This document shows, piece after piece, positions 2 to 9,829 of a stretch of DNA of 10,105 bases. The DNA comes from Candidatus Schekmanbacteria bacterium. GTDB lineage: Bacteria; CSSED10-310; JACPHN01. The notes beneath the pieces were generated by a model. That model was not told the origin of the DNA and did not search any database. It was given only the letters and a program-made list of their open reading frames with translations. Every line of letters starts with the position of its first letter. The stretch's first letter is position 1. Location of the stretch: positions 1 to 10,105 of the forward strand of contig JACPHN010000263.1 of NCBI GenBank assembly GCA_016188575.1, read 5' to 3'. The translations under genes and the position numbers were made by a program.

Positions 2-142
2 CGCTACCTCGAGCGGCTGGGCCTCGACCGCGGGGCGCTGCTGATTTTCGATCGGCGGCCCGCGGCCCTGCCGCTTCCGGACCGCGCCACGACCGCGGAG
101 GTCGCGCACGCCGGCAGACGGGTGCGAGTTGTGCGCCTGTAG
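2..142 (+). CDS. C-terminal fragment of an ATP-binding/PD-(D/E)XK-like protein (5' end outside window)
   Basis: The reading frame is open from the left edge to the TAG at 140-142 and gives 46 residues. The fragment begins RYLERLGLDRGALLIFDRR, continues through a Pro/Ala-rich stretch, and ends [10 protein letters not shown] 'YLdrLGLdeGyLvIFDrR ... gk.I.VvrL' ending is familiar from the C-terminal nuclease-like segment of AAA/PD-(D/E)XK ATP-binding proteins, where the last strand is a short basic-hydrophobic motif. That family assignment rests on recall of the motif alone; all ATPase motifs would lie upstream of the window. It ends 14 bases inside the possible TTG start of the next gene, so the two could be co-transcribed. 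Confidence 0.55.
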   Translation, partial: RYLERLGLDRGALLIFDRRPAALPLPDRATTAEVAHAGRRVRVVRL

Positions 143-863
143 CCGCCGCGAGCTCCGCGGCAGGGCGCCAGGCGGTCGGTGCGCACGGCGCATCTGGCGC
201 GTGGTGTACGGTGTCGCGCTCGCCACGATGTTCCTGTGCTCCTGGGGGTCGACCGCGCCTGCCTCGGCCGCCAGCGCCTTCGCCGTCACGCTGTCGCTCG
301 CTCCGACCGAAATCGCCATGGGCGGCACGAGCATCGTCACAGCGCGGGTGAGTCGGGGCGGAAGCGGATACGATCCGGATCTGTGCGCCACCAGCCCGTG
401 CCCGCGCGAAGTGTATTTTCAGAGCGCCCTGGGGGGACTTGCCGCGGCCGACCTTACCGCCGCGATCTGCTCCAGCGGCCGGCTTGACCAGGAGGGTTGC
501 GAGACGGCGGCGATGATCGGGTCCGCGGCGACCGTGCTCGGCCGCCACGTCTCGCCCGCGGCGGGCACCGGCACCGTGTGCGGGACGCTCGAGCTGGTGC
601 TGGTTCAGGGATGCGCGCCGCTTGCGGTGTCGGACGAGCTGCCGCCCGCTGTGCCCGTTTCTGCAACCGGCGCGGCGGAGCTCGGGGCGCTGCTTTCATT
701 GCTCTGCGCTCGCCGGCGTTACCGCGCCGCCGCCGCCTCCATCGACGGGGCGCGAGCAGCCGTGCTACTCTCTTGGCAGCCCGCGCGGAAAAGGACGCGA
801 ACAGACACTGAGGCGAGAAGGACATGGCAACCCGGATACCGACAGAAGGCGCCGATCGCGTAG
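129..863 (+). CDS. Predicted exported Cys-rich protein with C-terminal hydrophobic/arginine tail, function unknown
   Basis: I do not recognise the family. From TTG 129 the protein has 244 residues. An N-terminal basic stretch (RRIWR, 20-24) precedes a hydrophobic core (about 25-39) and an APASA-like signal peptidase site near 43-48, so export is likely. The start is uncertain: GTG 201 or 204 are alternatives that keep the hydrophobic core but lose the basic n-region, and no start has a convincing ribosome binding site. The mature part begins with a strand-rich segment ([19 protein letters not shown]) that reads like an Ig-like or bacterial surface domain. It carries six cysteines (86, 91, 114, 124, 151, 162), an even number that fits disulfides outside the cytoplasm. 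Near the C-terminus a VP motif (175-176) is followed by a short hydrophobic run (181-194) and RRRYR (195-199), like a surface-anchoring tail. The last ~45 residues are Arg-rich and may be read-through. The stop lies 40 bases inside the downstream gene. Confidence 0.6.
810..822 (+). promoter_or_regulatory. Ribosome binding site of the large regulator
   Basis: A purine-rich stretch, GAGGCGAGAAGGA, lies immediately before ATG 824. The GAGG at 810-813 and the AGAAGG at 816-821 both resemble anti-Shine-Dalgarno matches. This supports ATG 824 as the start of the 1799-residue protein, even though it lies within the 3' end of the preceding reading frame. Confidence 0.6.
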
Positions 864-3800
864 CGACGCCGATCGTGCCGGCGGGGCGACTGCTGGCGGG
901 CCGTTTTCACCTGCTCAGGCTGCTCGGCGGCAGCTCGTCGGTGGAAACCTATCTGGCGCGCGAGGCCGGAGCCGTGCACGCGCCGCTGGGAGCCGGCGGT
1001 TCCGCGGCATTTCTGGTCGTTGTCAAGGTATTGCGCCATCCGGAGATCGCCGAGCACACTTTGCAGTTCAAGCGCCAGTACCGCACCGCGCGGCGGCTCA
1101 TCCATCCCAACTTGCTCACCCCCCGAGAATTCGAAGCGGTTCCGCCGGAGCCGCCGTTTATGGTGCTCCCCTACGTCCACGCCCTGCGCGCCGAGGGTCT
1201 GCTGCGCAAGATGACCGATGGCGACCAGATCGAGCTTCTCTGGGGGCTGTTCGAGACGCTGGACTACCTGCACTCCCGCGGGTTGGTGCATGGTCGCCTC
1301 CATCAGGGCAACTTCCTCCTGGTCGAGTCCCGCGACGCTGCGCCGGGGGCGTCGCCGGGTCGCCACCCGAGCCACGCCGTGCTGATTGCCGACGCGGGAC
1401 TGGGGGAGACGACGACCGCCACGTTATCGGGCGCTGTGCGCGAGGAGTTCCACTATCTGGCGCCCGAGCTCGCCATCGGCCGCGCCTCGGATGGCCGCGC
1501 CGACCTCTATGCCGCCGGTGTGCTGCTCTACCGGATGGCCACCGGCGACTATCCGTTCACGGGAAAGACCGCCCTGGAGCTCGTCCGCCAGCATTTTCGC
1601 GCCTCGGCGCCGCCCTCGGCACCGCTGGCGGGCCTGCCGTCCGCGATCGAGGAAGTCATCCTGAAGCTGCTGCAGAAGCGCCCAAACCGCCGCTTTCGGT
1701 CGGCACAGGAGGTCCTGTCCTTCCTCGCGGAAAACCGCGCCGACTTCCGCGATGCCGCCCCGCGCCCGCGGCGCTTCCGGCTCTTCACGGGCGAGCTGAT
1801 CGGCCGCGAAAACGAGCTCGGCGTCCTCGGCAAGACGCTGGCCCTGGTGAAACGGTCGCAAGGGCACCTCGTGCTCATCTCCGGCGAGGAAGGCATCGGC
1901 AAGACGCGCCTGATGGAGGAGTTTCGCCTCTACGCCCAGCTCGAAGGCCTGCTGCCGCTGATGGCGCGATGCTTCGCGGGCGCCGGGCCTTACGTACCCA
2001 TTTCGGAAGCGCTCACCCAGCTCTTCGACCATCTCGAGCGGCGTAACCCGGAGTTTCTGATCGCCAACGGCGGTGACGTCGATCCGGAGCTGATGCGCGG
2101 AATTGTCGCACAGCTCCACCGCGGCGGCGGCGGTAGTGGCGGTGGCGGCAGAATCGATCTCCTCGACGCACTCGCAGAGTCTTTCCTGTCGGTGTCCCGA
2201 AGCTGGCCGCTACTGCTCATTCTCGATGACTTGCACATCGCCGATCGGGAAACGCTGGATTTCCTGGTGCATCTGACGCGCAAAATGACGAGCGCCAAGA
2301 TCATGGTGGTGGGCTTACTCCTCGACCGCGAAGTCACGCAGAGCCGATCGCGGGGCGAGGCGCACCCGCTTCTCCCGCTCTACGCCGACGGCGGCGGGCA
2401 GCCGCAGGTGCGTTTTCTGACCCTGGAGCGGCTGAGCCAGGCCGCTGTGGAAGCTCAGGCTGCGGCGCTGCTCGGGACGTCCAATATCCCCGGTCGGCTC
2501 GTGGAGCTGCTCATGGAGGAAACCAAGGGCAGCCCCTATTTCGTCGAGGAGCTGCTCAAGCACCTTGTCGAGTGCAACTTGCTCGAACGGACCGGAGAGC
2601 GCTGGCGGCTCGCCACCGACGCCACCGGCCTGCAGCAGCTCCCCTCGTCCATCTTCGAGATCCTCACGGCGCGCATCGAGCGCTGCACCGCCGAAGAAAA
2701 GCGGATCCTGTCCGCACTATCCGTCGTGGGCCGCGACCTGCCCCACTCGCTGCTGCGCGAGCTCTCCGACTTGCCCGAGGACGAGCTACTGGACCGCATC
2801 ACGGATCTCACGCTCATGGACCTCATCCACGAGGTCGCCGACCGGGACGGGAAGCGGACACTCGGTTTCACCCAGGACCGGCTCGCCCAGATCGTCTACG
2901 ACGGACTCTCGGCCAAGGACCGGTCGTCGCTTCATCTCCGCTACGCGGAGCTGCTGTCGCGCTTGCACGGCGCCAACCTCGACCCGGTAATCGACGAGCT
3001 CGCCCACCACTGCACCCGCGGCGGGGACCGGCAGCACGCCATTCTCTACTCGCGCCGCGCGGGTGACCGGTCGCGCACGATCTTCGCGCACTCCAAGGCC
3101 ATCGATCATTACGAGCGCACCCGCCGCCTCCTGTGGGAAGGCGAGCTTGCCGGCGATCCCCTGACCCGCTACATCGAGGTCTCGGAGCTGCTCGGCGACG
3201 TCTACGTGACGGTGGGCCGGTATCACAACGCCTTTCGCGTCTTCACGCAACTGCTCGAAATCGCCCAGCGGCTGCCGCTGTCGCGCTCCTATCTCGCCGA
3301 CTTGCACCGCCGCCTGGGGAACATCCAGGGCGCTCACGGCGAGCTGGATTCCGCGCTCGAGCATTTTCGCCAAGCCATCATCCTGATCGGCAACCAGGGG
3401 GAGACGGTACAACTGGCGCGCACCTACCTGGACCTCGGCGCCTGCCATTCTCGGTGGGGCAACGTCGTGCAGGCGCGCGAGAACGTGGCCCGGGCGCTGA
3501 AAATCGTGGAGCGATCCGAAAGCGCCGAGGAAGTGGCCAAGGCGCACGACTCGCTGGGGCGACTGGCGCTGGATCACGGCGAGATCGCCGAGGCGCGCGA
3601 GCACTTCTCGAAGAGCCTGCGGTTGCGCAGCAAGGCGAGCGACGAGGTGGGCGTCGCGTTCACCCTGGTCCACCTCGCGGACGCCGACATTCAGCAGGGG
3701 CTCAAGGGGGATGCCGTCCAGCGCCTGGAAGAGGCGATCGCGGTCTTTCGGCGCGTCGGCCAACAGCGCGGCGAGGCCGAGGCTCTGGCCCAGCTTGGGG

Positions 3801-6223
3801 TCCTCTACCACCGCTTTAGCGCCCGCTGGGACCTGGCGCGGGAAGCGCTGAGTAGCGCCATCGCCCTGAGGCAGCGCATGGGCGACGGCTTTCAGGCCGC
3901 GCTGGCGCAACTTTCACTGGCCGAGCTGGAAGCGGATCTCGGAAAGCTGGAAGAGGCGGAGCAGCGATTGAAAACCGTGCGGTCGGTGCTGGAGCGGGTC
4001 GGCAATCCGCTCGGCATGGCGCAGTGCGCGGCGGCCCAAGGCCGCTGGTGCACGCAGTTCGGCAGCCTCGTGAAGGCGCGGGAATACCTGTTGCAAGCGC
4101 AGGAGCACGTCAATACGGCGAGCGGGCACCGGCTGGCAGCGGTGCTGGATCCGGCGCTCGTGGACCTCTATGCGCGCATCGGCAACCTCGACCACGCCGT
4201 GCAGCTCTGTCGCGCGGCGCTCGGCAGGCTGCGCGAGGAGGCATATCCGCTGGCTCGGGCGGAGCTGAAGCTCCTGCTCGGCTCGACCCTGCGGCGGATG
4301 GGCGAGCTGGAGGAGTCGGAAGACGCGAGCTTCCTGGCGCTCGGCGAATTCAAGGATCTCGACGCGGAGCTCCATCAGGCGCACGCGCAGTTCGAGCTCG
4401 GCTGGCTGTGCCGCGCGCGCGGGCGGCTCGAGCAGGCGGGTGACCACTTCCACCGCGCCGAGCAGATCTACTTTCGCCTCGGCGCCGCGCGCCACCGCGA
4501 GGACGCCATGGCCGCGGCGCGCAAGCTGCAAGAGGAGACGTTCTCGGCGCTCCCGGACCCGAAGGAGGGGCGCCACGAGCTGACGATCCTCTACCGCATC
4601 AGCCAGGTGCTCGGCTCCCTGCTCGACCTGCGTCCCCTGCTTTCGAAAATCGTCGACATCGCCGTGGAGACGTTGCGCGCCGAACGCGGCCTGCTGGCAC
4701 TGGTGGACGAGAGCACGGGCGAGCTCGAAGTGAAGGCCGCGCGAAACTTCGACGTTGAGGGCACCGAGCTCAGCCTCGACTTTTCGCGCTCAGTCCTGGA
4801 GACGACCCTCGAGGGCGGCGCGCCGGTGCTGTCGAACAATCTGCAGACTGACGACCGCTTCAGCGCCAACGTCAGCGTCGTTCTCCTCGAGATCGAGTCC
4901 GTTCTGTGTGCGCCGCTGACCACGCGCAGTCGCACCGTGGGCTGCCTGTACGTGGACAATCGCCGGCAGGGCCGCGTTTTTTCCGACCAGGATCTGGCCT
5001 TCTTGACCACCCTCGGCACCCAGGCGGCGACCGCCATCGAGAACGCGTTGCTGTTCGAGAAGAACAAGGCGATCATGGAAGGGATCGACGAAGGCGTGGT
5101 CGCGATCGATCTCGGTGAGCGAGTCGTGGCGTTCAACCGCGCCGCGGAGCGGATCACGGGGCTGCGCGAAAACGAGGTCGTCGGACAGGACATCGACGAG
5201 CTGTCGATGCTGGTGCAGGCGCCCCTGGGTCGGGCGTTTCGCCGCGCGCTCGAGGGCGGCGACGAGGTGCGAGACGAGATAACTCTGACGCGGTTCTCGG
5301 GTGAGGACCGCACCGTGGAAGTGCAGTGCCGCACGATGCAGGACGCGTACGGCGAGCGGGCCAGCGTGCTCGGGCTCTTGCGCGACGTGACCGATCTCCG
5401 CCGGCTCGAGGCACAAGTGCGCATCGGCACCCGGTTGGAGGCGATGGGCGAGCTGGCGACGAAGGTCAGCGGGCGGATGACGGGATACCTGTCCGCCGTG
5501 CGCTCATTCTGTCACGGCTTGCTGGACGGCGTCGGCGAGGAGACCGCCAGCCGCGAATACGTGGAAGAGATCCTGCTCGAAGTGGACGACGCGGATCGCT
5601 ATATCCACACGACGCTGTCCGGGGAGTCGAGCAGCGGCACTGGCAAGGGAGGCCCGCGGGTCGCCGATTGTGCGCGCGTGCTCGCGGAAGTGGTGCACCG
5701 CTGGACACAGCGCGCCGAGGATCTCAACGTCAGCCTCGCGGTAACCTCGGCGCCGGCGCTGCCCGACGTGCCGGTGGCCGACGAGCTGCTGCGCGAGGCG
5801 GTGAGCAACCTCGTGGTCAACGCGCTGGACGCGCTCGAGCCGCTGGCGCGGCGCTCTGAGGAGGACACGCCCTCGGACCTGGACGTCACGCCGCCGGCAG
5901 GTTGCCGCTTTCCGCACCTCGCCGTGCAGCTCGCGGCGGAGGTCATTCCTGCGCGCGCACCGCGCCCGGAGCCGTCGCTGCCGAGCGGCGAGCTGGTCGT
6001 GGTCGAGATTCGCGACACTGGCCCCGGCATCCCCGACGACGTGCTCGAACGGATCTTCGACCCGTTTTTTACAACAAAAGCTGAAGGTAACGGCATCGGC
6101 CTGTGGCAGGTGCACCGGACCGTGGAGGAGGCGGGAGGATGCACGCGGGTTTCGACGTCACCGCGAGGAACCATCTTTCGGCTTTACCTCCCCGCGCTGG
6201 GCGCCGGCGGCGACGAGCCGTGA
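824..6223 (+). CDS. Giant multidomain signalling protein: pseudo-Ser/Thr kinase, AAA ATPase, TPR, GAF, PAS, histidine-kinase-like (degenerate)
   Basis: Cytosolic 1799-residue protein with no signal peptide or membrane span seen. Domain order: kinase-like fold ~25-300; AAA/STAND-type ATPase ~322-585, with Walker A GEEGIGKT (354-361) and Walker B LLILDD (464-469); a winged-helix-like region ~600-700; about ten TPR-like repeats ~780-1240; GAF ~1252-1412; PAS ~1416-1524; HisKA ~1530-1600; HATPase_c ~1640-1795, with N box (N1662, N1666), G1 DTGPG (1731-1735), F box FDPFFTTK and G2 GIGL (1757-1760). The architecture is known from large bacterial (PknK-like) and cyanobacterial kinase-AAA-histidine kinase fusions. 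The kinase domain keeps K68, N163 and the DFG Asp (D190, as DAG), plus APE (213-215). It has HGR instead of HRD (R158), Q85 for the alpha-C Glu, and a glycine loop missing two glycines. The HisKA box reads [10 protein letters not shown], with G1550 at the histidine position. Both phosphotransfer activities are therefore probably lost, while ATP binding at the AAA and HATPase_c sites is probably kept. Likely a ligand- and partner-sensing scaffold or switch; its ligand and target are not visible. It is followed after 15 bases by the EcsC-like gene. Confidence 0.93.
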
Positions 6224-6238: not shown

Positions 6239-7429
6239 ATGCCGAGCAAGGACCCCGCGGGGGAAGGCGCGCTGTGGTTACTGAAAGCCCTGGAGCGGTT
6301 ATTCGCTGAGGTCGATCGCGGCCGCCTCCTGGATGAAATCGAGGATTATCGCAAGCGTTTCCCCGACACCCCGGCGCCTGGCGTCGCCCGCCGCATCGTC
6401 GGCGAGATGGCGTTCACCTCGGGGGTGCGGGGCGGAATCCTGAGCGTGCCGCGGAGTGTTCCCGGGGTCGGTTGGGCACTGGGATTCGTCGGCGCGTCCG
6501 TCGACACTCTGGCGTTGATTCGCGAGCAATCGCTGCTCATTTTCAAGGTTGCCGCCCTCTTCGGGCACTCCTTGTACGAGCAGGCGCGTATCGTCGAGGC
6601 GCTTGCGGTCTTCGGCATCCTGTCCGGCGACGCGGACGCGGTCAACCAGCTCGAGGGCGTGCTCAAGGCGCTGCCCAGTGGGGCGCTGCGCGGCGCGGGC
6701 GTTGCGGTGGTGCGCGAGGCGGCGATCGCCATTGGCCAACGGCTGGCCAGGCGCGGCGTCCTCAAGTGGCTGCCGTTGATCGGGATTCCGCTCGGCGGCG
6801 CCATGAACTTCATGTCGACCGAGGACGTGGGCTGGAGCGCGATCCGCTATTACTCGCGACGCAACATCAGCCAGAAGCTGCTCGGTGACCTCTTTACCGA
6901 CGAGGAGCAGATGCGCAGGGCGCTGCTGGACGTGTATTTGTTCCTGCACTCCTCCGAGAAAGAGATTCCCAAGGAAGTCCAGACCCGGGCGGAGCGACTG
7001 GGGAGGAGCATCGGCGTGCGCGACGCGGAGAAGGTCGTGGCCGAGGCGGTGGCGGGACGCGGTCCCACCCCGAAATCCATCGCCGCGCGCCTGGAGGATG
7101 CCGCTGACCGCGCCCAGATTTTCGAGCGCGCGGTGCTCATGGCGCGGAGCATCGAATCCGACTACCTGCAGGGGTTTTTGCTCGCCAATCTCGCCGACGG
7201 CCTGGAGCTCAGCGAGGAGGAGCGCCGCCGCATCGCCGGCGATGTCCAGCGCTTCATGACGGACACCGTCGAAAACGAGCCGCCGGGACTGGCGCAGCGC
7301 GTAGGTGAGGCGGCGACCGACACGCTGCGATCCGTGGCCGCGACCGGCGCGAGCTCGGCGGCGTACGTCAAGCGCAATCTCCGCAACCTGCTCGGCCTGT
7401 CCGAGGACAAAGACGTCGAGAAAAGCTGA
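6239..7429 (+). CDS. EcsC-like protein with possible TerB-like C-terminal half
   Basis: A 396-residue protein without a signal peptide. The N-terminal half (about 48-205) has the pattern I associate with the EcsC family: a Gly/Pro-rich hydrophobic segment (61-92), a long hydrophobic helix with LIREQSLLIFKVAALFG (93-109), and a PLIGIPLGGAMN motif (179-190) followed by a Tyr-containing helix. EcsC proteins are poorly characterised; Bacillus EcsC is linked to the Ecs ABC transporter, and no transporter is seen here. The second half (about 215-340) is helical and acidic, with an 'ADGLELSEEERRRIA' segment (319-333) like the acidic signature of TerB/DUF533-type helical domains. The C-terminus (350-396) is an Ala/Arg-rich tail that may be amphipathic. 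It sits 15 bases after the large regulator and 2 bases before radA, so shared expression is likely. The EcsC-like call is moderate and the TerB-like call is weak. Confidence 0.7.
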   Translation: MPSKDPAGEGALWLLKALERLFAEVDRGRLLDEIEDYRKRFPDTPAPGVARRIVGEMAFTSGVRGGILSVPRSVPGVGWALGFVGASVDTLALIREQSLLIFKVAALFGHSLYEQARIVEALAVFGILSGDADAVNQLEGVLKALPSGALRGAGVAVVREAAIAIGQRLARRGVLKWLPLIGIPLGGAMNFMSTEDVGWSAIRYYSRRNISQKLLGDLFTDEEQMRRALLDVYLFLHSSEKEIPKEVQTRAERLGRSIGVRDAEKVVAEAVAGRGPTPKSIAARLEDAADRAQIFERAVLMARSIESDYLQGFLLANLADGLELSEEERRRIAGDVQRFMTDTVENEPPGLAQRVGEAATDTLRSVAATGASSAAYVKRNLRNLLGLSEDKDVEKS

Positions 7430-7431
7430 TC

Positions 7432-8988
7432 GTGGCCAGGAAAGAGGGAACGGAATTCGCCTGCGCGGAATGCGGATACCGGACGCCGCGGTGGATGGGG
7501 CGCTGCCCGGACTGCGGTGAATGGGGCAGCCTCAATGAGGAGCTGATTGCGGCAGAGGTGGCCCGCTCGGCGGGCCGCCCGATCGCGACCCGGAGCTGGG
7601 TAGGCGGCGGCGCAGCGGGCGCCGGCGCGGGAATCCGCCGCGCCACGGGGCGCGTCGAGGCCACGCCCACGCCAATAGCGACGGTGCAAAACGCCGCGGA
7701 AACGCGCTTTGGCTCGGGTCTTCCGGAGCTCGACCGCGTCCTGGCGGACGGCTTCGTACCGGGTGCGTCCTATCTCCTCGCGGGAGAGCCGGGCATCGGC
7801 AAGTCGACGTTGCTGTTGCAATCCCTCGCGCGCGTGGCGGCGACGCGGACGGTCCTGTACGCGACCGCCGAGGAGTCGACACAGGCGCTTCGGGGGCGCG
7901 GCGAGCGCCTCGGGGCGCTCGCGGATCGCCTCCTGGTCCTCGGCGAAAGCGAGATCGGCGCGCTTCTCGAAGGCGCTGCGGCGGCGGCCCCAGCGCTGCT
8001 GGTGATCGACAGCGTGCAGGCGACGTTTTGCCCGGACCTCGCCGGCGCACCCGGAACCGTCAGCCAGGTGCGCGAGGCCGCCCTCGCCGCGGCGCGCTTC
8101 GGCCGCGAGATCGGCTGCGCCGTGGTGCTGCTCGGCCACATTACCAAAGAGGGGGGCATTGCCGGCCCCAAGGTATTGGAACATCTCGTGGACGTCGTCT
8201 TGATGTTCGGCGGCGACCGCCACTACCCGTATCGCGTGCTGCGGTGTGTGAAAAACCGCTTCGGTCCCACCGGCGAGGTCGGCATCTTCGAAATGACGGG
8301 TAGCGGCCTACAGAGCGTCGCCAATCCCTCGGCCTTGTTCCTGACCGAACGCCCGCACCTTATGCCGGGTTCGGCGGTAACCTGCGTCCTCACGGGGGTG
8401 CGCCCGATCCTGCTGGAGATGCAAGCGCTCGTCGGGGACCGCGCGTCCCCGAGCCCGCGCCGCGTGATCCAGGGTGCCGACCAGCGCCGCGTCTCGTTCC
8501 TGCTTGCCGTGCTCGAAAAGGCGCTGGGCTTGCCGCTTTCCCAGCGGGACGTCTTTGTGAACGTGGTCGGCGGCATGCGCGTCGACGAACCCGCAGCGGA
8601 CCTCGCGATCTGCCTGGCGATCCTGAGCAGCGCCCGGAAGGAAGTGTTGCCGCCGGACCTGGTCGCCATCGGTGAGGTCGGTCTTACCGGCGAGCTGCGC
8701 CGGGTCGATCGCCTGGGCGCGCGCCTCCGCGAGTCGGCGGACCTGGGTTTTTGCGCCGCGGCAGTGCCGGCCGGGGCGACGGCCGCGGCGGCAGCCGGGA
8801 CGACGGCGACGACGCCGGCGGACAACGAGGTTGCGGATGCGCGCGCCTCGCTGCGGCTTTTCCCCCTCGCCCACCTGCGCGACAGCCTGGGTAGCATCCT
8901 GAGCGGCGCCGAGGCAGTTTCGGACCCCCCCCCGCAAGCGGCGGGAGGCAGGCGGGGGACCTTGGAGACTCGTGGTGAAATGGTATGA
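7432..8988 (+). CDS. radA: DNA repair/recombination ATPase RadA (Sms)
   Basis: RadA is a RecA-like ATPase with DnaB-type helicase activity that extends D-loops and helps resolve branched recombination intermediates. All family hallmarks are visible: an N-terminal C4 zinc finger (C11, C14, C25, C28); Walker A GEPGIGKST (118-126, K124); Walker B LLVIDS, with D193; the RadA-specific KNRFG motif (274-278); and a C-terminal Lon-protease-like domain (about 345-490) with the VFVNVVGGMRVDEPAADLA-type sequence. The start is GTG 7432, two bases after the previous stop, with only a weak purine-rich GAGAAAAG upstream. At 518 residues it is longer than the ~450-460 usual for RadA. The extra length is a Gly/Ala linker after the zinc finger (about 60-75), an Ala/Thr-rich insert late in the Lon-like domain (about 445-467), and a polar tail after the usual end (about 498-518) that begins at a run of nine C. 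The end overlaps the acyltransferase start by 17 bases. Confidence 0.97.
   Translation: MARKEGTEFACAECGYRTPRWMGRCPDCGEWGSLNEELIAAEVARSAGRPIATRSWVGGGAAGAGAGIRRATGRVEATPTPIATVQNAAETRFGSGLPELDRVLADGFVPGASYLLAGEPGIGKSTLLLQSLARVAATRTVLYATAEESTQALRGRGERLGALADRLLVLGESEIGALLEGAAAAAPALLVIDSVQATFCPDLAGAPGTVSQVREAALAAARFGREIGCAVVLLGHITKEGGIAGPKVLEHLVDVVLMFGGDRHYPYRVLRCVKNRFGPTGEVGIFEMTGSGLQSVANPSALFLTERPHLMPGSAVTCVLTGVRPILLEMQALVGDRASPSPRRVIQGADQRRVSFLLAVLEKALGLPLSQRDVFVNVVGGMRVDEPAADLAICLAILSSARKEVLPPDLVAIGEVGLTGELRRVDRLGARLRESADLGFCAAAVPAGATAAAAAGTTATTPADNEVADARASLRLFPLAHLRDSLGSILSGAEAVSDPPPQAAGGRRGTLETRGEMV
8925..8933 (+). repeat. Homopolymer of nine C near the 3' end of radA
   Basis: An uninterrupted run of nine cytosines directly follows GGA in codons for Asp-Pro-Pro-Pro near the radA C-terminus. 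Loss of one C would shift radA into the reading frame of the downstream acyltransferase with no intervening stop, and gain of one C would end radA at 8978. The run may be a slippage-prone site or a sequencing error point. Confidence 0.85.
8964..8967 (+). promoter_or_regulatory. Ribosome binding site of the acyltransferase gene
   Basis: GGAG within the end of radA lies 4 bases before GTG 8972 and 7 bases before GTG 8975. The spacing favours the second GTG, which would shorten the acyltransferase by one residue. Confidence 0.45.
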
Positions 8989-9829
8989 CGTCAATTCCCC
9001 CGCCAGCCGCGATCCGGCCAGGCTCGAGCGCTTCGTCACTGCGATCGAACCCTATCTGCAGCGGCTGTTTCGCCCGCGAGTCAGCGGCCTCGAGCACATT
9101 CCCGGCGGTCCCGTGCTGTATGTTGGCAACCACAGCGGCGGCGCGCTCACTCCCGAAAGCTACATCTTCTTCGTAGAGGTCTATCGCGCCCACGGCCTCG
9201 ACGGCGTTCCTTATGGGCTCGCGCACTCGTTTCCGTTGCGGCTGCCCGGGTTTCATCAGCTTTTCGTGCCGCTCGGCGCGGTGCGCGCCAGCCACGACAA
9301 CGCGGCGCGCGTCCTCGAAGTCGGCGGCAAGCTGCTCGTTTTTCCCGGCGGCGACATCGATTCGCTGCGCCCGTTTCACATGCGCAACCGCATCGTCTTC
9401 GGCTCGCGGCGCGGCTACGTGCGCCTGGCGTTGACCCACGGACTGCCGATCGTCCCGTTCGTCGCCGCCGGCGCTCACGCCACCTTCGCCGTGCTGAACG
9501 ACGGCCGCAAGACCGCCCGCCTGCTCGGCATCGATCGCCTCTTACGGGTGAAGACCTTCCCGGTGACGTTCAGCCTGCCGTGGGGCTTGACTGTGGGGCC
9601 GCCCCCCGCGTACATCCCGCTGCCGACGGACGTGTGGATGGAGATTCTGCCGCCCATGCGGTTCGCGCGTGCCGGGGAAGAAGCGGCGGCCGATCGGCGC
9701 TACGTCGAGGAGTGTCACCACCACGTGTTGTCGACGATGCAATCCGCGCTGACGAGACTGGCCGCCGCGCGGGGACAGGCCTCCATTCTCGAGCGAGTGG
9801 CGGAACGACTGCGGCCGTCGCGGCCATGA
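8972..9829 (+). CDS. Lysophospholipid acyltransferase-family protein (PlsC/LPLAT superfamily)
   Basis: A 285-residue protein predicted to transfer an acyl group from acyl-CoA or acyl-ACP to a lipid or lysophospholipid-type acceptor at the membrane face; the true acceptor is unknown. The catalytic block reads VGNHSGG (51-57), where the His of the HX4D-type motif is H54. The acidic residue expected a few positions later in this NHSGG subgroup appears as Glu (TPES, E62) rather than the Asp I would expect. The second block is FPGGDIDSLRPF (124-135), followed by NRIVFGSRRGYVRLAL and a GLPIVPFVAAG block (157-167), as in acyltransferases annotated as 1-acyl-sn-glycerol-3-phosphate acyltransferase-like. 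A SLPWGL segment (201-206) and PLPT (217-220) also match this subgroup. There is no clear membrane span. Start is GTG 8972 or 8975, with radA overlapped by 17 or 14 bases, which suggests translational coupling. Family is sure; substrate is not. Confidence 0.9.
   Translation: MVKWYDVNSPASRDPARLERFVTAIEPYLQRLFRPRVSGLEHIPGGPVLYVGNHSGGALTPESYIFFVEVYRAHGLDGVPYGLAHSFPLRLPGFHQLFVPLGAVRASHDNAARVLEVGGKLLVFPGGDIDSLRPFHMRNRIVFGSRRGYVRLALTHGLPIVPFVAAGAHATFAVLNDGRKTARLLGIDRLLRVKTFPVTFSLPWGLTVGPPPAYIPLPTDVWMEILPPMRFARAGEEAAADRRYVEECHHHVLSTMQSALTRLAAARGQASILERVAERLRPSRP

Follow-up and report, generated by a model that had tools for sequence, protein, structure and literature searches.

A Candidatus Schekmanbacteria homologue of dual Ser/Thr-histidine kinases in which both phosphotransfer centres appear to be lost

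Closest described systems

Among described systems, the cyanobacterial cbSTKIII dual kinases, such as HstK and Alr2258, resemble the protein reported here in carrying an N-terminal Ser/Thr kinase, a GAF domain and a C-terminal histidine kinase on one chain. They are described as dual kinases (PMC2176072), whereas in the present protein both centres look dead and the HisKA domain is degenerate. Comparison with one Desmonostoc (Nostoc-group) genome, for which 47 of 162 candidates were scored, yielded no match that reached E 1e-40. The C-terminal part may be compared with DivL, a pseudo-histidine kinase of Caulobacter that has Tyr in place of the acceptor His together with all HATPase boxes, shows neither kinase nor phosphatase activity and regulates a partner (PMC4211667). 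DivL binds TNP-ATP weakly, and the substitution Y550H does not restore autonomous activity; the study cautions against taking retained HATPase boxes as proof that ATP is bound (PMC4211667). Both proteins have a PAS-DHp-CA arrangement with a residue other than His at the acceptor position. DivL has Tyr there and lacks a Ser/Thr kinase, AAA or TPR domain, whereas our protein has Gly and has moreover lost the H-box acid and Thr/Asn.

The middle part is built as in the STAND/MalT-type NTPases, with an AAA_16 domain, a helical arm and MalT-like TPRs, but unlike these it is flanked by two kinase folds, and its oligomerisation and ligand are putative. From the AAA region on, the protein also matches the TOMM system kinase/cyclase fusion model TIGR03903, with 149 bits against a cut-off of 706; by its name this model joins a kinase to a cyclase, whereas a histidine kinase is carried here instead. 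The N-terminal 1200-1400 residues form a Pkinase-AAA_16-TPR-GAF scaffold that is shared by six proteins from other phyla, all of which keep the HxD Asp in their kinases. Their output is a sigma54 activator in L092, L128, L130, L131 and L132 and a SpoIIE/PP2C-type phosphatase in L127, not a His-less histidine kinase (assigned by Pfam for L092 and by eye for the others). This supports the view that the scaffold may be a widespread sensory switch driving whichever output is attached to it. Two Anaerolineae proteins (L315 and L317, genome G397) match the kinase-to-TPR part and have at their N-terminus an apparent hydrolase of the metallo-beta-lactamase fold (KIRIWGARGSxPxP, HxHxDH-like). These two homologues and the Chloroflexi homologue L316 were rejected as dual kinases.

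Gene, domains and the two kinase modules

The window, that is, the whole stretch of DNA analysed, is an entire contig of 10,105 bases from a genome of 9.2 Mb in 275 contigs. The gene (Table 1) starts with ATG, preceded at 4 nt by the ribosome-binding-like sequence GAGAAGGA, and has no internal stops. Its GC3 lies between 0.80 and 0.88 across all domains and is similar in the neighbouring genes, which indicates that the frame is coding throughout. Behind it, in the stretch 6239-9829, come the EcsC-like gene, the RadA/Sms gene (DNA repair) and an acyltransferase gene, the last overlapping RadA/Sms by 17 nt, in what is likely a transcription unit. Upstream, an open reading frame at 129-863 (+) has a start resembling a signal peptide and a stretch of Ig-like appearance and overlaps the start of the kinase gene; its codon-position GC is less gene-like, with 0.66 at the second position. 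No response regulator or histidine kinase adjoining the gene is encoded within the 10.1 kb contig. A role in anti-phage defence was considered and rejected: PADLOC matched no more than generic models for kinases (PD-T4-6, mad6) and TPRs, and the gene has RadA and an acyltransferase as neighbours.

Table 1. Features of the gene and of its downstream neighbours; positions are those of the window, residues those of the encoded protein
Feature	Position (nt)	Strand	Basis or remark
Double pseudo-enzyme gene, Pkinase-AAA_16-arm-TPR-GAF-PAS-DHp-HATPase_c	824..6223	+	1799 aa
Pseudo-Ser/Thr-kinase domain, residues 22-305	887..1738	+	Pkinase 2.4e-16; Pfam match 64-297
Degenerate Gly-rich loop G35-G-S-S-S-V-E-T42, second and third Gly gone	926..949	+	alignment
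K68, VAIK lysine, kept	1025..1027	+	alignment
Q85 replacing the alpha-C Glu	1076..1078	+	alignment, E in 40/43
HGR 156-158 versus HRD/HGD, catalytic Asp to Arg	1289..1297	+	motif reading and alignment
D190-A191-G192 versus DFG, metal-binding Asp kept	1391..1399	+	alignment
AAA_16 NTPase domain, residues 324-496, Walker A/B intact	1793..2311	+	AAA_16 2.9e-19
Walker A GEEGIGKT, residues 354-361	1883..1906	+	motif reading
Walker B, residues 462-475	2207..2248	+	motif reading
TPR region, residues about 766-1225, MalT-like	3119..4498	+	TPR_12 2.9e-31, TPR_MalT 4.5e-16
GAF domain, residues 1268-1406	4625..5041	+	GAF_2 7.2e-17
PAS domain, residues 1413-1527	5060..5404	+	PAS_4 3.7e-14
DHp-like helical hairpin without acceptor His, residues 1531-1605	5414..5638	+	HisKA E 0.024, predicted helices
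H box: G1550 (acceptor His), R1551 (acid), G1554 (Thr/Asn)	5471..5485	+	alignment
HATPase_c, all boxes kept, residues 1655-1791	5786..6196	+	HATPase_c 3.1e-17, 63 bits
Weak EcsC-like gene	6239..7429	+	15 nt past the stop of the kinase gene; EcsC 1.9e-4, under cut-off
RadA/Sms gene	7432..8988	+	2 nt past the EcsC-like gene; TIGR00416 8.8e-148

The N-terminal domain scores 60.4 bits against PF00069 (cut-off 31.7) and thus has the profile and fold of a protein kinase; its predicted model (pLDDT 88.3, pTM 0.88) finds PknB as its closest PDB folds. Conservation was read from an alignment of 44 kinase domains, namely this one and 43 relatives. Column 158 is Asp in 41 of the 43 and Arg (CGC) here, in agreement with the initial annotation, which had read HGR at 156-158 in place of HRD. 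Further conserved residues are replaced, so that the losses listed there, the HRD Asp and the acceptor His, are both right but do not make up the full list: the Gly of column 37 (42/43 relatives) is Ser, the Gly of column 40 (32/43) is Val, the Val of column 42 (40/43) is Thr, the HRDLK Lys of column 160 (38/43) is His, the Pro of column 161 (41/43) is Gln and the Phe of column 191 (38/43) is Ala. The same alignment has K68, H156, N163, D190, G192, E215, D223 and R290 retained. Of the hallmarks of an active Ser/Thr kinase, the HRD Asp, the alpha-C Glu and the Gly-rich loop are therefore absent (R158, Q85, GGSSSV), and the VAIK Lys, the catalytic-loop Asn and the DFG Asp are present (K68, N163, D190).

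At the other end of the protein, no Pfam match to HisKA is obtained with the full-length query, and the DHp region scanned alone reaches 15.1 bits (E 0.024) against a cut-off of 26.9. The predicted DHp-CA model (pLDDT 87.4) has DHp helices at 1526-1569 and 1575-1597, with G1550 inside one continuous helix. In an alignment of 48 histidine-kinase cores (the query and 47 others), column 1550 is His in 45 of the 47 and Glu in the remaining two, among them the relative L010; the query has Gly (GGG, nt 5471-5473), as had been noticed at the outset. The following column holds Glu or Asp in 43 of the 47 and Arg in three, which are the clade relatives L002, L009 and L010 described below; the query has Arg as well, and no other histidine kinase among the 48 rows has Arg directly after the acceptor position. 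Column 1554 is Thr, Asn or Ser in 46 of the 47 and Gly in the query. Since the H box is thus without its acceptor, its acid and its Thr/Asn, neither autokinase nor phosphatase chemistry would be expected from the usual roles of H-box residues.

The remaining signatures are well preserved. The HATPase columns N1662, N1666, D1731, G1733, G1735, F1745, G1757, G1759 and G1782 are retained, and the N box (N1662/N1666), the G1 box (D1731-G1733-G1735), the F box (FDPFFTTK) and the G2 box (GNGIGLW) are intact, so that a HisKA-type histidine kinase is represented here by all four of these boxes without the acceptor His. The AAA_16 domain with Walker A/B and the TPR sensor correspond to the sequence definition of a STAND NTPase. 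Motif reading and alignment thus agree with the earlier statement that the AAA Walker motifs and all HATPase_c boxes are kept, and the idea of a STAND-like switch fits the AAA_16-arm-TPR middle. Taken together, both phosphotransfer centres look dead, each through the change of several residues, and structure prediction still gives confident folds for the two cores despite the lost catalytic residues.

Relatives and evolutionary rate

A search of eight genomes of the phylum, among which the protein's own (G000) is the sole representative of its family and order, gave no true orthologue and three full-length relatives of the same architecture: L009 and L010, both from genome G007 (31% identity), and L002 from G000 itself (27%). 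L002 keeps both centres (HGDLKPEN, DFG, AHRMKN). In L009 the kinase is dead (ALRLL, with the VAIK Lys changed to Arg; LGN for HRD; no DFG) and the His is kept (AHRMKN), and in L010 the kinase is intact (HRDLKPQN and DFG) and the acceptor His is changed to Glu (AERIRN). The four proteins thus comprise all combinations of a dead or live kinase with a lost or kept His. As L009 and L010 show, the two losses can occur apart, and the proposal that the two modules were disabled independently holds to this extent. Both centres are kept in two more distant dual kinases, L093 from the same genome and L133 from G266. Close relatives were not found by a DNA-pattern search of genome contigs, a search with the four-member alignment returned generic histidine-kinase or AAA matches only, and plasmid sequences gave no match.

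In a tree of 121 cores, the DHp-HATPase cores of the four proteins form one clade (SH-aLRT 99), within which the query groups with L010 (73) and L009 with L002 (92). The H-box chemistry may have changed in this clade before the His was lost. The query is placed with L009 in the kinase tree (84/64), on a very long branch, and with L010 in the TPR tree (83/74), and the AAA tree leaves its position and that of L009 unresolved. With the domain trees in disagreement, each kind of loss is, on these phylogenies, the outcome of one or two events, and the trees do not settle the number.

The rate of change differs between domains. Mean identity per domain was measured to the six scaffold homologues from other phyla, and the values for the query, L009, L010 and L002, respectively, are 29, 35, 38 and 39 in the kinase, 28.5, 27, 29 and 22 in the AAA domain, 25.5, 26, 27 and 26 in the arm, 20, 18, 20.5 and 21 in the TPR region and 33, 22, 27 and 22 in the GAF domain. 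Likewise, the end branch of the query is 2.44 in the kinase tree against a median of 0.96, and 1.08 against 1.18, 1.8 against 1.9 and 0.80 against 0.69 in the AAA, TPR and HK-core trees. Judged by these sequence comparisons, fast evolution is confined to the kinase domain of the query, and the AAA, arm, TPR, GAF and HATPase domains are not accelerated. This acceleration fits repurposing and relaxed constraint equally. The initial annotation had proposed that selection kept the architecture and removed both phosphotransfer chemistries; the kept architecture and the two disabled modules stand, but selection as the agent goes beyond these data.

The protein's own genome contains at least 188 Pkinase and at least 123 HATPase_c matches in its 9.2 Mb, a myxobacteria-like expansion of eukaryotic-like kinases. 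Among the matches listed, the catalytic Asp is kept in 120 of 123 distinct kinase domains with a readable catalytic loop, a sample that leans to high-scoring domains, so that pseudokinases are under-counted. The exceptions are the query, L176 (HGN; 2293-3057, -), which adjoins a second kinase domain, and L273 (HGC; 12317-13096, +). The acceptor His is kept in 105 of about 112 histidine-kinase cores with a readable DHp; other His-less proteins with a HATPase core are L206 (Glu), L230 (Gln), L266 (Arg), L228 (Ala) and L268 (Arg). At these rates, which come from an incomplete sample of one genome, about 8% of dual kinases would be expected to have lost one centre or more, and about 0.1% to have lost both. 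One or both centres are lost in three of the six dual kinases found (P about 0.008 if shared descent is ignored).

Possible modes of action

We hold it to be an even chance that the protein is a non-phosphotransferring paralogue of the dual Ser/Thr-His kinases, in which a STAND-like sensor works through a core resembling DivL to control a partner. Changes of shape and the binding of partners, not phosphate transfer, are probably how it signals. In such a mechanism, the AAA_16-arm-TPR part would respond to a ligand or partner as an oligomerising switch of the STAND type, driven by NTP, and the GAF and PAS domains would provide additional inputs. The His-less DHp-HATPase core would dimerise and, in the manner of DivL, dock a partner and alter its activity, this partner being either a response regulator or a histidine kinase paralogue. 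The pseudokinase domain could be a docking or allosteric module, perhaps occupied by a nucleotide through K68, N163 and D190. By analogy with DivL, the intact HATPase boxes would not by themselves prove that ATP is bound, and the nucleotide gating suggested in the initial annotation is putative.

The same HATPase boxes could serve a split enzyme, in which this protein would phosphorylate the His of a paralogous DHp, for example that of L002, the pair together being the kinase. L002 has the same architecture, is encoded in the same genome, possesses both the His and an HGD/DFG kinase and has its C-terminal core in the same clade of four. G000 and G007 each have one His-less and one His-bearing member of this clade, and there are precedents: in FasB/FasC the His was proposed to come from one partner and the kinase domain from the other (PMC12675982), and the pseudokinase ChrS together with HrrS has been discussed as a comparable pair (PMC9491836). 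We regard this arrangement as unlikely, but as the main alternative. The genes of the query and L002 are not adjacent, the two proteins are just 27% identical, overall as well as in the DHp, which leaves their co-dimerisation putative, the H-box changes extend past the His, and a third clade member may be present in G007.

Relaxed decay, in which function was lost recently and the dead sites mark the beginning of pseudogene formation, is compatible with the accelerated kinase domain but is improbable. It is at odds with 1799 open codons of uniform codon-position GC, with the lack of acceleration in the AAA, TPR, GAF and HATPase domains and with several base changes per site accompanied by zero frameshifts.

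We attach little weight, a shade less than to decay, to a residual or altered chemistry, that is, a different acceptor such as H1564 or a different nucleotide transfer that uses K68, N163 and D190, which are kept. H1564 does lie in the first predicted DHp helix, 14 residues or two heptads past G1550, but it should sit about 20 A along the helix from it, and the commonest residues of this column in relatives are Glu, Gln, Asp, Gly, Ala and Ser. With His not conserved there, the nearby alternative acceptor named in the initial annotation as a way to undo the loss is judged unlikely. For the kinase domain, the loss of the Gly loop, the alpha-C Glu and the HRD Asp and Lys argues against a transfer of this type.

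A wider reading, to which we give similarly slight credence, takes the dual kinases of this lineage to be complementary sets, the Ser/Thr-kinase and His-acceptor roles being split between paralogues that would form a hetero-oligomeric machine. The combinations found in the two genomes are indeed complementary: dead/His-less with live/His in G000, and live/His-less with dead/His in G007.

An error of sequence or assembly, conceivable in a draft metagenome-type genome of 275 contigs (completeness 94%, contamination 3.7%) and earlier named as something that could undo both losses, is very improbable, since at least eight separate conserved positions are altered in frame, R158 (CGC) and G1550 (GGG) are each at least two bases away from Asp or His codons and the contig is an uninterrupted gene cluster of uniform GC3.

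To return to the preferred reading of a non-phosphotransferring paralogue, each loss has a precedent when taken singly, and the combination of a pseudo-Ser/Thr kinase and a pseudo-histidine kinase flanking an intact STAND-like NTPase is apparently undescribed. Our limited literature search found no report of both kinase-type losses within one protein, and a limited look at the literature on the fungal group X dual kinases gave no usable statement on kinase residues. The cyanobacterial survey excluded proteins that miss parts of a catalytic domain (PMC2176072), and surveys of this kind would miss cases such as the present one. The query and its three relatives constitute a natural two-by-two set on one architecture, and thus a non-catalytic role of each module is directly testable.
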